Source of the DNA: an uncultured Hyphomicrobiales bacterium
Lineage (GTDB): Bacteria > Pseudomonadota > Alphaproteobacteria > Rhizobiales > Devosiaceae
Assembly (NCBI GenBank): GCA_903842455.1
Contig: CAIMLX010000014.1
Location: forward strand, 1-34,075
Direction of reading: 5' to 3'
Length of the DNA stretch: 34,075 nt
Below the pieces are notes generated by a model, which saw nothing but the letters and a program-made list of their open reading frames with translations, was not told the DNA's origin and ran no database searches. The position numbers and the translations under genes are program-made. The first letter of the stretch is position 1. Every line of letters begins with the position of its first letter. Below are positions 19,248 to 23,039 of this stretch, piece by piece.

Positions 19248-20012
19248 TCAGGCCGAGGCAGCGCTTGGCAGCTCGCCGCTATCGTCCATCAACAGAAGGT
19301 TGCGGCCCTGCCGCTTCGCCTCGTAGAGCCGCTGGTCGGCCACCCGGAACAGCTCGGCAAAGCCGATGTCTCCGGCAAAAGTGGCGCCGCCGATCGACAC
19401 CGACAGCCGCTGCGCGATGTCCCCGGAGCGCACGAACAGAGCGTTGATCGCCTTGCGGATACGCTCGCCCACATGCATGGCCACGATCTCGTTGGCGCCG
19501 TGCATGAACACGCCGAACTCCTCCCCACCGAGCCGGCCGACGAGGTCGCCGTCACGCACGTTGGCGCGGATGGCTGCGGCGATCAGTTGCAGGACTTCAT
19601 CGCCCCGGTGGTGACCGAAGCGGTCGTTGATGGTCTTGAAATGGTCGGCATCGATGACCAGCAGCGAATGGCCGTCGGTGTTTGCGCTGCTGAGCGCCGT
19701 ATCCACTCTGGTGGTGAAAGCGCGGCGATTGAGGCAGTCGGTCAGCCAGTCGGTGGCCGCGAGAGTCTCTAGCTTGCGATTGGCCTCGGCAAGTTGCGCA
19801 GACCGCAACTGCATGTAGAACATCACCGGTCCGCCGAGGATGATGGGCAGCAGGAACGAGGCTATGAATCCCGCCAGGTCCATACCCCGGCTCAGCACCA
19901 GCATTATCGCTTCAGACACGACGACCGAGAGGAGGCAGGACGCTCCGGTGACCATGGCGGTCCTTCGCCATACCCGCACCCAACCGCTGCGTGACAACGT
20001 CCAGTCCATCAT
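19248..20012 (-). CDS. membrane diguanylate cyclase (GGDEF), tandem paralogue
   Basis: The 254-residue protein has the same layout as its neighbour: two membrane helices (about 20-40 and 46-67), a helical linker and a GGDEF domain. The motif is GGEEF (162-166), with the RxxD inhibitory site RDGD at 153-156 and the metal residues in LLVIDADHFKTINDRFGH. The start was set at ATG 20012 because AAGGA lies 8 bases upstream; an in-frame ATG at 20039 is possible. Shared architecture and motif context (VGERIR, RVADQ.LY.AK) show a duplication, though the sequences have diverged. The output is probably cyclic-di-GMP, and the input signal is unknown. Confidence 0.9.
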   Translation of the reverse strand: MMDWTLSRSGWVRVWRRTAMVTGASCLLSVVVSEAIMLVLSRGMDLAGFIASFLLPIILGGPVMFYMQLRSAQLAEANRKLETLAATDWLTDCLNRRAFTTRVDTALSSANTDGHSLLVIDADHFKTINDRFGHHRGDEVLQLIAAAIRANVRDGDLVGRLGGEEFGVFMHGANEIVAMHVGERIRKAINALFVRSGDIAQRLSVSIGGATFAGDIGFAELFRVADQRLYEAKRQGRNLLLMDDSGELPSAASA

Positions 20013-20170
20013 CTCATGCGTCCTTCGCGATGAGGCCATGAGTAGGAGGGGAACCTTGCATACCGATTAACTACCAGTTCCAGATGTGGGGCGGTTTGCA
20101 TTTGTGAGTTCGTTTCCGTTTCGTTCACAATGCTATTGGTAGCCTGGCGGCCCTCGCGTAAAGCTCCGGG

Positions 20171-20674
20171 ATGGCTCCCATGGTACGAATCATCGGCATC
20201 GACCCCGGTCTCAGGCGCTGCGGCTGGGGCGTCATCGAGAGCGAAGGCAACCGGCTGACCTATGTGGCCTGTGGCACGCTCACGCCGCCCACCGACCTGC
20301 CGCTGGCGGAACGGCTGGTGCTGATCCACTGCGGACTGAACGAGCTGATCGATCGATTTCGGCCGGACGAGGCCGCCGTGGAGGAAACGTTCGTCTCGGC
20401 GGGGGCGCGTTCGGCGCTGCAGCTTGGCCAGGCACGAGGCGTGGCGTTGATGACGCCGGCGCTCAAGGGATTGTCGGTGGGGGAATATGCCGCCAACCTC
20501 GTAAAGAAAGCCGTTGTCGGTTCCGGCCATGCCGAGAAGGCGCAAATCCAGATGATGGTGAAAATCCTGCTGCCTGCCGCCGACTTCAAGGGCGCCGATG
20601 CTGCCGATGCGCTCGCCATCGCCATCTGCCACGCGCATCACCGCACCATTCGCCAGATCCGGGCCATCGCATGA
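20171..20674 (+). CDS. ruvC: Holliday junction resolvase RuvC
   Basis: The 167-residue endonuclease cleaves Holliday junctions symmetrically together with RuvAB. All four acidic catalytic residues are seen: Asp11 in [14 protein letters not shown], Glu71 in AAVEETFVS, and Asp143/Asp146 in [12 protein letters not shown]. The length is usual. The start could be ATG 20171 or ATG 20180 ([10 protein letters not shown]); neither has a strong ribosome site. The stop overlaps the ruvA start (ATGA), so these two genes are coupled. Upstream lies the divergent GGDEF gene, and the 158-bp gap between them must hold promoters for both. Confidence 0.95.
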
Positions 20675-21288
20675 TCGGAAAACTGAAAGGCCTCGTCGAC
20701 GGTTTTGGCGACGACTTCGTCCATCTCGACGTCAATGGCGTGGTGTACGAGGTGTTCTGTTCGTCAAAGACGCTCTCGTCACTGCCGCAGGTCGGGCACG
20801 CGGCGATGGTCCACACCGAGATGATCGTGCGCGAGGACATGATCCGGCTCTACGGGTTCTTCTCGGAGACCGAGAAGGCCTGGTTCGGCGTGCTGACCAC
20901 GGTGCAGGGAGTGGGCACGCGGGTAGCGCTCTCGATCCTCTCGACGCTGACGCCGTCGGAACTGTCGAGTGCCATCGCGCTGCAGGACAAGGCGATGATC
21001 GGCCGCGCCAATGGCGTGGGGCCGAAGCTCGCGGTGCGGCTTGTCACCGAACTGAAGGGCAAGGCGCCGGTTGGTGGTACCGTCGACGCGGGAACGCTCG
21101 GGCTGCAGGCGGCGCTCGGCGAGGGGGTCGCGAGCGGCAATGTCGCGGACGCGGTGTCGGCGCTGGTCAACCTCGGATACTCGAGCGCCCAGGCGTCGGC
21201 CGCCATCGCGCGCATCATCGCCAAGGAAGGCGAGGGGCTGGCGACGGACAGGCTGATCCGCTTGGGGCTGCGGGAGCTGAGCCAGTAG
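20671..21288 (+). CDS. ruvA: Holliday junction branch migration protein RuvA
   Basis: The 205-residue protein has three RuvA domains. The N-terminal OB fold begins [20 protein letters not shown]. The central helix-hairpin-helix pair includes [16 protein letters not shown] and [19 protein letters not shown]. The C-terminal domain III that contacts RuvB includes [20 protein letters not shown]. RuvA tetramers hold the Holliday junction square-planar for RuvB. It is coupled to ruvC by ATGA overlap. Unlike the usual order, the next gene is not ruvB but an AbrB-type antitoxin 68 bp downstream. Confidence 0.96.
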
Positions 21289-21310
21289 GCTTGCAACTGG
21301 CGCGAGCGTT

Positions 21311-21334
21311 CCTTACTTTTATAGCTAGGTAAGG
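21311..21334 (+). promoter_or_regulatory. inverted repeat and AT-rich promoter region of the toxin-antitoxin module
   Basis: CCTTAC-N12-GTAAGG brackets the AT-rich core TTTTATAGCTAG, 23 bp upstream of the antitoxin start. The layout suits an operator for AbrB-type autoregulation over a -10 box (TATAGC or TTATAG). It is much more AT-rich than the flanking ruv genes. Confidence 0.5.
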
Positions 21335-21356
21335 CGCATATTTGGAGGTAAGTGGG

Positions 21357-21617
21357 ATGCTTACTACACTTACATCGAAGGGGCAGATGACGCTGCCCAA
21401 GGCAGTGCGGGATGACCTCAAGGTCAAGCCGGGCGATCAGATCGATATCGTCAAGGAGGGCGACAGGTATGTGCTGCGGCCGCGTAACCGCAGTGCAGCC
21501 GAGCTCTATGGCATCCTTCACCGACCAGATGAGAAACCCATGACCATCCACGAAATGGATGAGGCACTCGGGAAGGCTCTGGCCGAAGACGACGAGCGCA
21601 TTCGTGCTGGGCGCTGA
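21357..21617 (+). CDS. vapB: AbrB/MazE/SpoVT-type antitoxin (VapB-like)
   Basis: The 86-residue protein has the swapped-hairpin AbrB DNA-binding domain at 1-45: TTLTSKGQMTLPKAVRDDL, then KPGDQIDIVKEGDRYVLRPR. An acidic helical C-terminus (IHEMDEALGKALAEDDERI) would wrap the toxin. The ATG at 21357 has a perfect GGAGGTA site. The last codons overlap the toxin gene by 14 bp, the usual coupling for vapBC. The product should bind and neutralise the adjacent PIN-domain RNase and repress its own promoter, for which the 21311-21334 repeat is a candidate site. Confidence 0.88.
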   Translation: MLTTLTSKGQMTLPKAVRDDLKVKPGDQIDIVKEGDRYVLRPRNRSAAELYGILHRPDEKPMTIHEMDEALGKALAEDDERIRAGR

Positions 21618-22002
21618 CACCAACGTACTTGTCCGGTTCGTCACCCGTGACGATCCGGTTCAATCACCGCAGAGCCGGGATCTCATCACCCATTCGGCAA
21701 ATCAACCCATCCGGATCTGCGTGGTCGCGCTGGTGGAACTCGTCTGGGTGCTCACCAAAGGGAAACACTGGCCTGTCGATGAGGTGTTCGCAGCCTGCGG
21801 CGCCCTGCTCAACAGCAGCGATTTCGAGATTGAGGAACGAGAGTTGGTGATACGGGCCCTTGAAGACGCGCAGAACGCCAGGTGTGACCTCGCCGATGCC
21901 TTGATCGCGCTGTTCAACAGGCGCGCCGGATGCGAGGCGACCGCCACTTTCGACGTGGATGCCCAACGGCTCGAGCATATGACCCCGGTCGTTTCACGAT
22001 GA
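21604..22002 (+). CDS. vapC: PIN-domain ribonuclease toxin (VapC-like)
   Basis: The 132-residue protein has a complete PIN domain. Acidic metal ligands are visible at Asp5 ([11 protein letters not shown]), Glu45 ([11 protein letters not shown]), Asp95 or Asp98 ([12 protein letters not shown]) and Asp117/Asp119 (TFDVDAQRL). It is expected to cut RNA in a Mg2+-dependent way when free of antitoxin. I chose GTG 21604, which places the first Asp at residue 5; an upstream ATG at 21559 lies inside the antitoxin gene and adds a non-family extension. The TGA stop overlaps the ruvB ATG (ATGA at 21999-22002), so toxin and ruvB translation are coupled, which is unusual. Confidence 0.88.
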
Positions 22003-23039
22003 CCGATCTCACCTCTGCCAGCGCTGACCGGGATGGTCCGCTCGACGTAGCACTCCGCCCATCGGGGTTTTCCGAGTTTGTCGGGCAGGCCGATGCGCGG
22101 GCCAATCTCGAGGTGTTCATCTCGGCGGCCAAGCAGCGGAAGGCGGCGCTCGACCATGTGCTGTTCGTCGGGCCGCCGGGGCTCGGGAAGACGACGCTGG
22201 CGCAGATCGTGGCGCGGGAACTCGGGGTGGGGTTCAGGGCGACGTCGGGCCCGGTGATCGCCAAGGCGGGCGATCTCGCGGCGCTGCTGACCAATCTCGA
22301 AGAGCGCGACGTGCTGTTCATCGACGAGATTCATCGGCTCAATCCGGCGATCGAGGAAATCCTCTATCCGGCGATGGAGGACTACCAGCTCGACCTGATC
22401 ATCGGCGAAGGGCCGGCGGCGCGGTCGGTGCGGATCGACCTGGCGAAGTTCACGCTGGTGGGGGCGACGACGCGGGCCGGCCTGCTGACGACGCCGCTGC
22501 GCGACCGGTTCGGTATTCCGATCCGGCTGAACTTCTATACGCCCGAGGAACTGGTGCAGATCGTCGAGCGCGGGGCGAGGCTGATGGGGACGCCGATGGC
22601 CCGGGATGGGGCGATGGAAGTGGCACGGCGGTCGCGCGGCACCCCGCGCATTGCCGGGCGGCTGTTGCGGCGGGTGGCGGACTTCGCGCTCTACGAGGGG
22701 GCGGCCACCATCGATCGGAAGCTGGCCGACAAGGCACTGCTGCGGCTCGACGTCGATGCGCGCGGGCTCGACATGCTCGACCGGCGCTACCTCAAGACCA
22801 TCGCCGAGTTCTACAATGGCGGGCCGGTGGGGATCGAGACGATCGCCGCGGCGCTCAGCGAACCGCGCGACGCGATCGAGGAGATCGTCGAGCCCTACCT
22901 GCTGCAGCAGGGCTTCATCCAGCGCACGTCGCGTGGCCGCATGCTCACCGGCATCGCCTTCCAGCACCTCGGAATGGCCGTGCCGCAGGGGTTCATGGGC
23001 CAGCAGGCGAGCCTGTTCGAGGAGCCCGAACAGGAGTGA
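21999..23039 (+). CDS. ruvB: Holliday junction branch migration helicase RuvB
   Basis: The 346-residue AAA+ motor drives branch migration with RuvA. Motifs are the N-terminal [12 protein letters not shown] (19-30), Walker A GPPGLGKT (58-65), Walker B VLFIDEIH (105-112), sensor segment [10 protein letters not shown] and arginine-finger region LRDRFG. The C-terminal winged helix contains [20 protein letters not shown]. The ATG at 21999 overlaps the toxin stop; a longer open frame upstream lies inside vapC and is not needed. The stop overlaps the ybgC start (GTGA). The gene is intact, so the inserted toxin-antitoxin module has not broken RuvB. Confidence 0.97.

Follow-up and report, generated by a model that had tools for sequence, protein, structure and literature searches.

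Toxin-antitoxin pairs are usually viewed as loosely placed mobile modules. Restriction specificity genes, an example of allele-swapped loci with core flanks, have conserved borders around a divergent, exchangeable middle. The locus described here has that layout too, but a toxin-antitoxin pair makes up its cargo, which lies within an operon and overlaps the core gene that follows. By its components the locus belongs with the VapBC type II family, with which it shares a PIN domain with conserved acidic residues, a small overlapping upstream antitoxin, and a palindrome over promoter-like sequence. It departs from that family in being fixed within ruvAB, in having a stop codon that overlaps the ruvB start, and in its allele-like swapping at one core-gene slot.

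The nearest described arrangement is in R. leguminosarum 3841, where the vapBC pair RL3987-RL3988 is reported immediately upstream of ruvA, and where vapC, ruvA, and ruvB fall in one fitness class (PMC11406972). That pair, an 87-aa SpoVT-AbrB protein and a 133-aa PIN protein, likewise adjoins ruvA-ruvB, but it is placed upstream of ruvA, and the excerpted text of the report mentions neither conservation, operator, ruvB overlap, nor swapping (PMC11406972). Beyond this adjacency, no description of vapBC within ruvAB occurs among the matches listed from open-licence PubMed Central, and the arrangement goes unmentioned in the excerpted texts of PMC10932983, PMC10945364, and PMC2701414.

A VapBC module between ruvA and ruvB

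The window, meaning the whole 34,075-nucleotide stretch analyzed, is one entire contig (CAIMLX010000014.1) from a 280-contig genome of an uncultured Hyphomicrobiales bacterium of the family Devosiaceae (GCA_903842455.1). The features relevant here are the following.

20171..20674, + strand: ruvC (Pfam RuvC, 161.4 bits)
20671..21288, + strand: ruvA, left border of the slot (NCBIfam TIGR00084, 180.7 bits against a cut-off of 85)
21290..21295, + strand: -35-like CTTGCA (sequence comparison)
21309..21336, + strand: VapB operator-like palindrome TTCCTTACT-N10-GGTAAGGCG (15/18 to consensus)
21314-21319, + strand: -10-like TACTTT, beneath the palindrome (sequence comparison)
21344..21348, + strand: Shine-Dalgarno-like GGAGG ahead of vapB (sequence)
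21357..21617, + strand: vapB, AbrB/MazE-type antitoxin, 86 aa, ATG start (Pfam and NCBIfam matches)
21604..22002, + strand: vapC, PIN-domain toxin, 132 aa, GTG start within vapB (Pfam, alignment, AlphaFold2)
21999..22002, + strand: ATGA, overlap of vapC stop and ruvB start (sequence)
21999..23039, + strand: ruvB, right border of the slot, ATG start (NCBIfam NF000868, 500.5 bits against a cut-off of 282)

All genes lie on the + strand in the order ruvC-ruvA-[promoter/operator-like]-vapB-vapC-ruvB, with 68 nt from ruvA to vapB and a 14-nt overlap of vapB with vapC. A sequence-only reading of this DNA had proposed a VapBC-like module here, and its coordinates, 21289-22002, prove exact. Its identification is borne out by matches above the Pfam cut-offs, VapB to MazE_antitoxin (42.4 bits, cut-off 24.7) and VapC to PIN (PF01850; 40 bits, cut-off 23.6). 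VapB also matches lp_hng_hel_AbrB at 48 bits; two narrower NCBIfam models, NF040493 for VapB (13.7 against 60 bits) and TIGR00028 for Mtu VapC (25.4 against 73.6 bits), scored below their curated cut-offs. Divergent from ruvC, on the minus strand at window 19248-20039, is an ORF with GGDEF-like sequence, as judged by eye.

In an alignment of 29 of the 42 Devosiaceae slot toxins described below, the window toxin among them, D5, N7, E45, D98, D117, and five more residues are invariant in 29/29. D5, E45, D98, and D117 are presumably the acidic active-site residues of VapC, and the earlier assertion that they are intact is supported. An AlphaFold2 model of the vapC product, made from the same 29 toxins, is confident (pLDDT 96.8), and its top Foldseek matches are mostly VapC/PIN structures, all weak (best E 3.3e-4, TM 0.47, rmsd 11.2). 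Sequence searches of the PDB returned no match for the toxin and three matches, all weak, for the antitoxin. Neither protein matched any PADLOC defence family at E<=0.1, and the window's own genome has no second copy of the toxin at E<=0.001. In 16 toxin-sharing pairs of loci, vapC dN/dS ranges from 0.045 to 0.364, purifying selection that agrees with the reading of a functional module. A degenerate toxin relic is ruled out by these ratios, by the invariant residues, and by the stop-free character of all 42 Devosiaceae matches. On sequence grounds, the best reading of the module is a functional type II toxin-antitoxin VapBC, with RNase activity and neutralization by the antitoxin predicted.

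Contents of the slot in Devosiaceae

Our Devosiaceae sample comprised 136 genomes. Searches detected RuvA in 128 and RuvB likewise in 128, and in 124 genomes the two genes share a single contig and strand. Gaps between ruvA and ruvB in these 124 measure 2-5 bp in 39, 33-118 bp in 17, 131-300 bp in none, and 346-1261 bp in 68. The toxin occurs in 42 of the 136 genomes (E<=1e-8), one per genome and every one within the slot; 40 of these genomes belong to the set of 124. vapB was located in 41 of the 42, the exception being G064, where the contig ends early. VapBC is the most frequent slot cargo in the Devosiaceae examined. The arrangement is neither common to all relatives nor accompanied by degenerate toxin residues, with the toxin in 42/136 genomes and its acidic residues invariant. 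A lone insertion in one strain is ruled out, since 42 Devosiaceae and 80 Rhizobiaceae genomes have a slot toxin, and no sign was seen at E<=1e-8 of a general mobile VapBC with extra Devosiaceae copies. The antitoxin has weaker relatives outside the slot.

The remaining 28 long gaps hold other genes, including a HEPN-domain protein, a 114-aa family, an exported family, membrane-like proteins, and a lone AbrB protein; six of eight such cargo proteins scanned had no Pfam match. A HEPN-like gene replaces VapBC in L010, L016, and L097 (the slots of G101, G023, and G087), solitary in L010 and with the 114-aa family after it in L016 and L097; the Pfam scan covered the L010 protein alone. A small exported-looking protein with a motif like ADQNEATAVAIWFVE recurs in slots L022, L080, L081, L083, L026, and L095, and its L080 copy, when scanned, had no Pfam match.

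Among the 17 short gaps, two contain clear scars of the vapC 3' end (G070, G016), which show deletion of the cassette, and two more are borderline (G054, G055); the 13 others match the vapC 3' end no more closely than shuffles do. The suggestion that the module is kept because its deletion harms ruvB finds no support in these data, given the two clear scars, the 39/124 genomes with gaps of 2-5 bp, and the overlap of ruvA with ruvB in all 25 empty sites read. Two irregularities of the ruv genes themselves were encountered. A sister genome has a second, diverged ruvA/ruvB pair (G085:C222:5842-6917; 55% and 73% identity), either a paralogue or contamination. ruvB is in two pieces in G013:C2 and G062:C1 and has an inner stop in G135:C96, through mutation or assembly error.

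The slot in Rhizobiaceae and beyond

In Rhizobiaceae, 81 of 247 genomes have a toxin match at E<=1e-22, and in 80 of these 81 the match sits between ruvA and ruvB; G587, the exception, has its sole listed match elsewhere. The loci examined were the best match of all 81 genomes plus four second matches. The 81 Rhizobiaceae-side slot loci counted hereafter are those of the 80 genomes plus L155. The family meant here by Rhizobiaceae is f23, one genome of which agrees fully with Aliihoeflea sp. 2WW in ruvA, vapC, and ruvB (L155, L203); in a broad sense the name is probably right. A scan of named genomes found ruv genes at four of the best 80 loci, three from Devosia and one from Aliihoeflea. In three Rhizobiaceae loci (L241, L265, L273), about 250-770 bp of extra sequence lies between vapC and ruvB, so a slot may be able to take further cargo beside the first.

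Across the order, 36 of 249 genomes match at E<=1e-15, 31 of them outside Devosiaceae. Among these 31, two are in the slot by coordinates (G202, G337), five loci that were read have no ruv gene nearby, 23 matches are far from ruvA/ruvB or on another contig, and for G340 ruv positions are not listed. At the level of the class, 19 other genomes of 289 match at E<=1e-22, and ruvA, ruvB, and ruvC are absent from the flanks (<=~1.5 kb) of the loci read; the same slot throughout the class was not seen in this sample. Separately, ruvA-ruvB gaps of about 3-4.5 kb occur in G268, G365, and G295, from other Hyphomicrobiales families, which suggests that the junction accepts inserts more widely in Hyphomicrobiales. 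That Rhizobiaceae share the slot, and that its contents turn over fast, both go beyond the sequence-only reading.

Operator- and promoter-like sequence

That reading had also credited the module with its own promoter-like region and inverted repeat. A simple scan for a sigma-70 promoter found none; comparison with relatives, though, bears the proposal out at the level of sequence, revealing a conserved -35/-10-like pair and a palindrome at 21290-21336. The consensus element is TTCCTTACT-N9/10-AGTAAGGAA, lying over a CCTTG..TACTAT pair. The window's palindrome matches at 15/18 with a spacing of 5 and likewise at 15 with a spacing of 10 (hand count), the latter being the commonest spacing among the palindromes of relatives. 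The -35-like element is CCTTG(C/T) in many relatives, and the window's CTTGCA falls within the conserved flank when the window is compared with G085.

Scores of at least 15/18 are reached at 40/41 Devosiaceae loci, and of at least 14/18 at 63/81 Rhizobiaceae-side loci; the best of 122 single-base shuffles scored 13/18, and none of 44 non-VapBC gaps or inserts longer than 30 bp scored above 13. The palindrome is not specific to the slot, as expected of a VapB operator: 26/84 non-slot loci score at least 14 even at slot spacing, and many non-slot loci have CCTTAC/GTAAGG half-sites at other spacings. The palindromic operator over promoter-like sequence, a feature of VapBC membership, is therefore present at sequence level.

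Overlap of vapC with ruvB

The proposed sharing of ATGA by the vapC stop and the ruvB start is correct, and it is no peculiarity of the window. The 4-nt overlap, with ruvB's start in frame, recurs exactly at 42/42 Devosiaceae loci and 73/81 Rhizobiaceae-side loci, being absent from the other 8/81. Of the 39 empty sites 25 were read; ruvA runs into ruvB at every one, with an overlap of 4 nt at 24 sites and of 8 nt at the remaining site. Among the 28 other Devosiaceae cargoes, 13 overlap ruvB through a terminal NTGA. A rule that only coupled inserts survive is ruled out for other cargo by this last count, and coupling is not indispensable, because more than half of those cargoes, and the eight VapBC loci just mentioned, lack the overlap.

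Shine-Dalgarno-like runs of four or more bases were counted before ruvB, with expectations drawn from shuffles. Such runs precede ruvB at 23/25 empty sites (expected 10.1), 10/14 class 1 cassettes (2.6), 2/28 class 2 cassettes (3.7), 15/45 other Devosiaceae junctions (10.6), and 15/78 Rhizobiaceae-side loci (7.7). The window's ruvB has none. Together with the exact overlap, this anatomy supports the earlier suggestion that translation of RuvB may depend on translation of the toxin.

Probable exchange of cassettes between conserved flanks

Genomes nearly identical in RuvAB can carry very different toxins: 99.5% against 39% identity for G040-G057, 97% against 36% for G088-G092, and 97% against 33% for G000-G085. 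The correlation of toxin identity with RuvAB identity over 40 Devosiaceae loci is weak (rho 0.31). Among the Devosiaceae pairs listed with RuvAB identity of at least 95%, toxins fall below 50% in 18/28 (a hand count of pairs that share genomes and so are non-independent), and in Rhizobiaceae the corresponding figure is 15/30. In nine pairs, three of them unswapped controls, the alignments place the loss of identity between the ruvA end and the operator, with recovery at the last vapC bases or at ruvB; Rhizobiaceae lose identity in the slot in the same pattern. rpoB is close in G088-G092 (96.5%) and in G040-G057 (95.4%, partial, 1315 bp); of the 22 genomes in the rpoB sample five yielded no rpoB, including G085 and G066, and the window genome yielded only a fragment. 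Cassette GC is lower than that of the flanks at 40/40 Devosiaceae and 81/81 Rhizobiaceae-side loci.

Mapped onto a tree built from ruvA and ruvB of 109 genomes, the contents of the slot require at least 49 changes (shuffled mean 64.8), a figure that recombination may inflate because the tree is built from the flanks themselves; the window's toxin class takes 13 changes for 13 genomes. On the toxin tree, three labels take 7 changes against a shuffled mean of 92.8, a low count that near-copies favor. The toxin trees are weakly resolved. On the full one, the window's class adjoins non-slot toxins. A reduced tree, made from a random subset of 80 rows after eight non-slot rows, R_L245, and D_G106 had been excluded as long or odd, puts the slot toxins all on one side of a branch with support 87, unstarred. 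With the reduced set, an AU test left a single clade of both Devosiaceae classes unrejected (p 0.294), and the slot toxins may or may not share one origin.

In four of 17 toxin-sharing pairs vapC dS is significantly lower than ruvB dS, in two it is higher, and in 11 the two do not differ; G080-G029 has a vapC dS of 0.066 against a ruvB dS of 0.432. One toxin-sharing pair, L155-L203, is identical. Its two members probably represent the same genome, which makes the pairs of each with L204 duplicates.

Discussion

Gene order, the operator- and promoter-like sequence, the vapC-ruvB overlap, purifying selection, and divergent toxins between near-identical flanks are all read directly from the genomes compared. 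Our main reading, to which we assign a probability of roughly 0.6, is a functional, autoregulated VapBC in a recombination-swapped ruvA-ruvB slot, where translation of ruvB is tied to that of vapC and the cassette probably contributes a promoter inside the operon. VapB together with VapC would bind the TTCCTTAC..GTAAGGAA palindrome and repress that promoter, whose transcript would continue via vapBC into ruvB. ruvB would then be read from two promoters, that of ruvCA and that of VapBC, the latter rising upon degradation of VapB. Ribosomes ending vapC would restart at the overlapping ruvB start, a restart that may substitute for the ruvA-to-ruvB coupling of empty sites. Homologous recombination within the conserved flanks would move cassettes between species, as a unit running approximately from the operator to the end of vapC.

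Much of the same evidence might be produced by a plain selfish or hitchhiking VapBC, in a slot that tolerates inserts and with nothing given to ruvB or the cell beyond addiction. The use of the slot by HEPN-domain, 114-aa, membrane, and exported proteins, fewer than half of which overlap ruvB, is what such tolerance predicts, as are the frequent cargo-free sites, the vapC scars, and the low GC of the cassettes. We nevertheless regard this explanation as unlikely, if a real contender, since slot toxins group apart from non-slot ones across two families (near-copies contribute to that result) and no other address was found within Devosiaceae at E<=1e-8. At the opposite pole, VapBC autoregulation might serve as a stress-inducible ruvB promoter, breakdown of the antitoxin raising RuvB along with free toxin and so coupling growth arrest to repair. 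The conserved promoter/operator-like sequence ahead of vapBC-ruvB and the vapC-ruvB overlap are consistent with such a device, as is the placement of the adjacent R. leguminosarum vapC in the same mutant phenotype class as ruvA and ruvB, according to the excerpted report (PMC11406972). Against it, that common phenotype may reflect polarity, vapBC is placed upstream of ruvA in that paper (PMC11406972), and close relatives lack the cassette; we find the proposal distinctly doubtful.

Two bolder proposals start from the swapping itself. The Hyphomicrobiales ruvA-ruvB junction could be an allelic slot dedicated to conflict genes and swapped by recombination, in which toxins diversify while the operator and the ruvB overlap stay near-fixed. 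Each strain's own, different VapBC would then be tied to the Holliday-junction motor and would fire upon an attack on recombination or on RuvAB expression; this we consider a long shot. A polymorphic defence or guard locus, whose RuvAB-linked toxins diversify and exchange in answer to phages or elements that meddle with recombination, appears quite improbable. Its allele swapping resembles that of restriction loci, and a HEPN-domain gene is among the alternative cargo, but the cassette matched no PADLOC model at E<=0.1 and no RuvAB-sensing part was identified in it.

The VapBC module is real, and the place it occupies is unusual, shared widely, and subject to rapid swapping. Over two families VapBC pairs hold one address in a core repair operon, where the toxin gene runs into the core gene that follows it, yet they swap like alleles. 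The slot thereby offers a direct test of the selection for chromosomal VapBC and of the idea that modules of this kind control neighboring genes.
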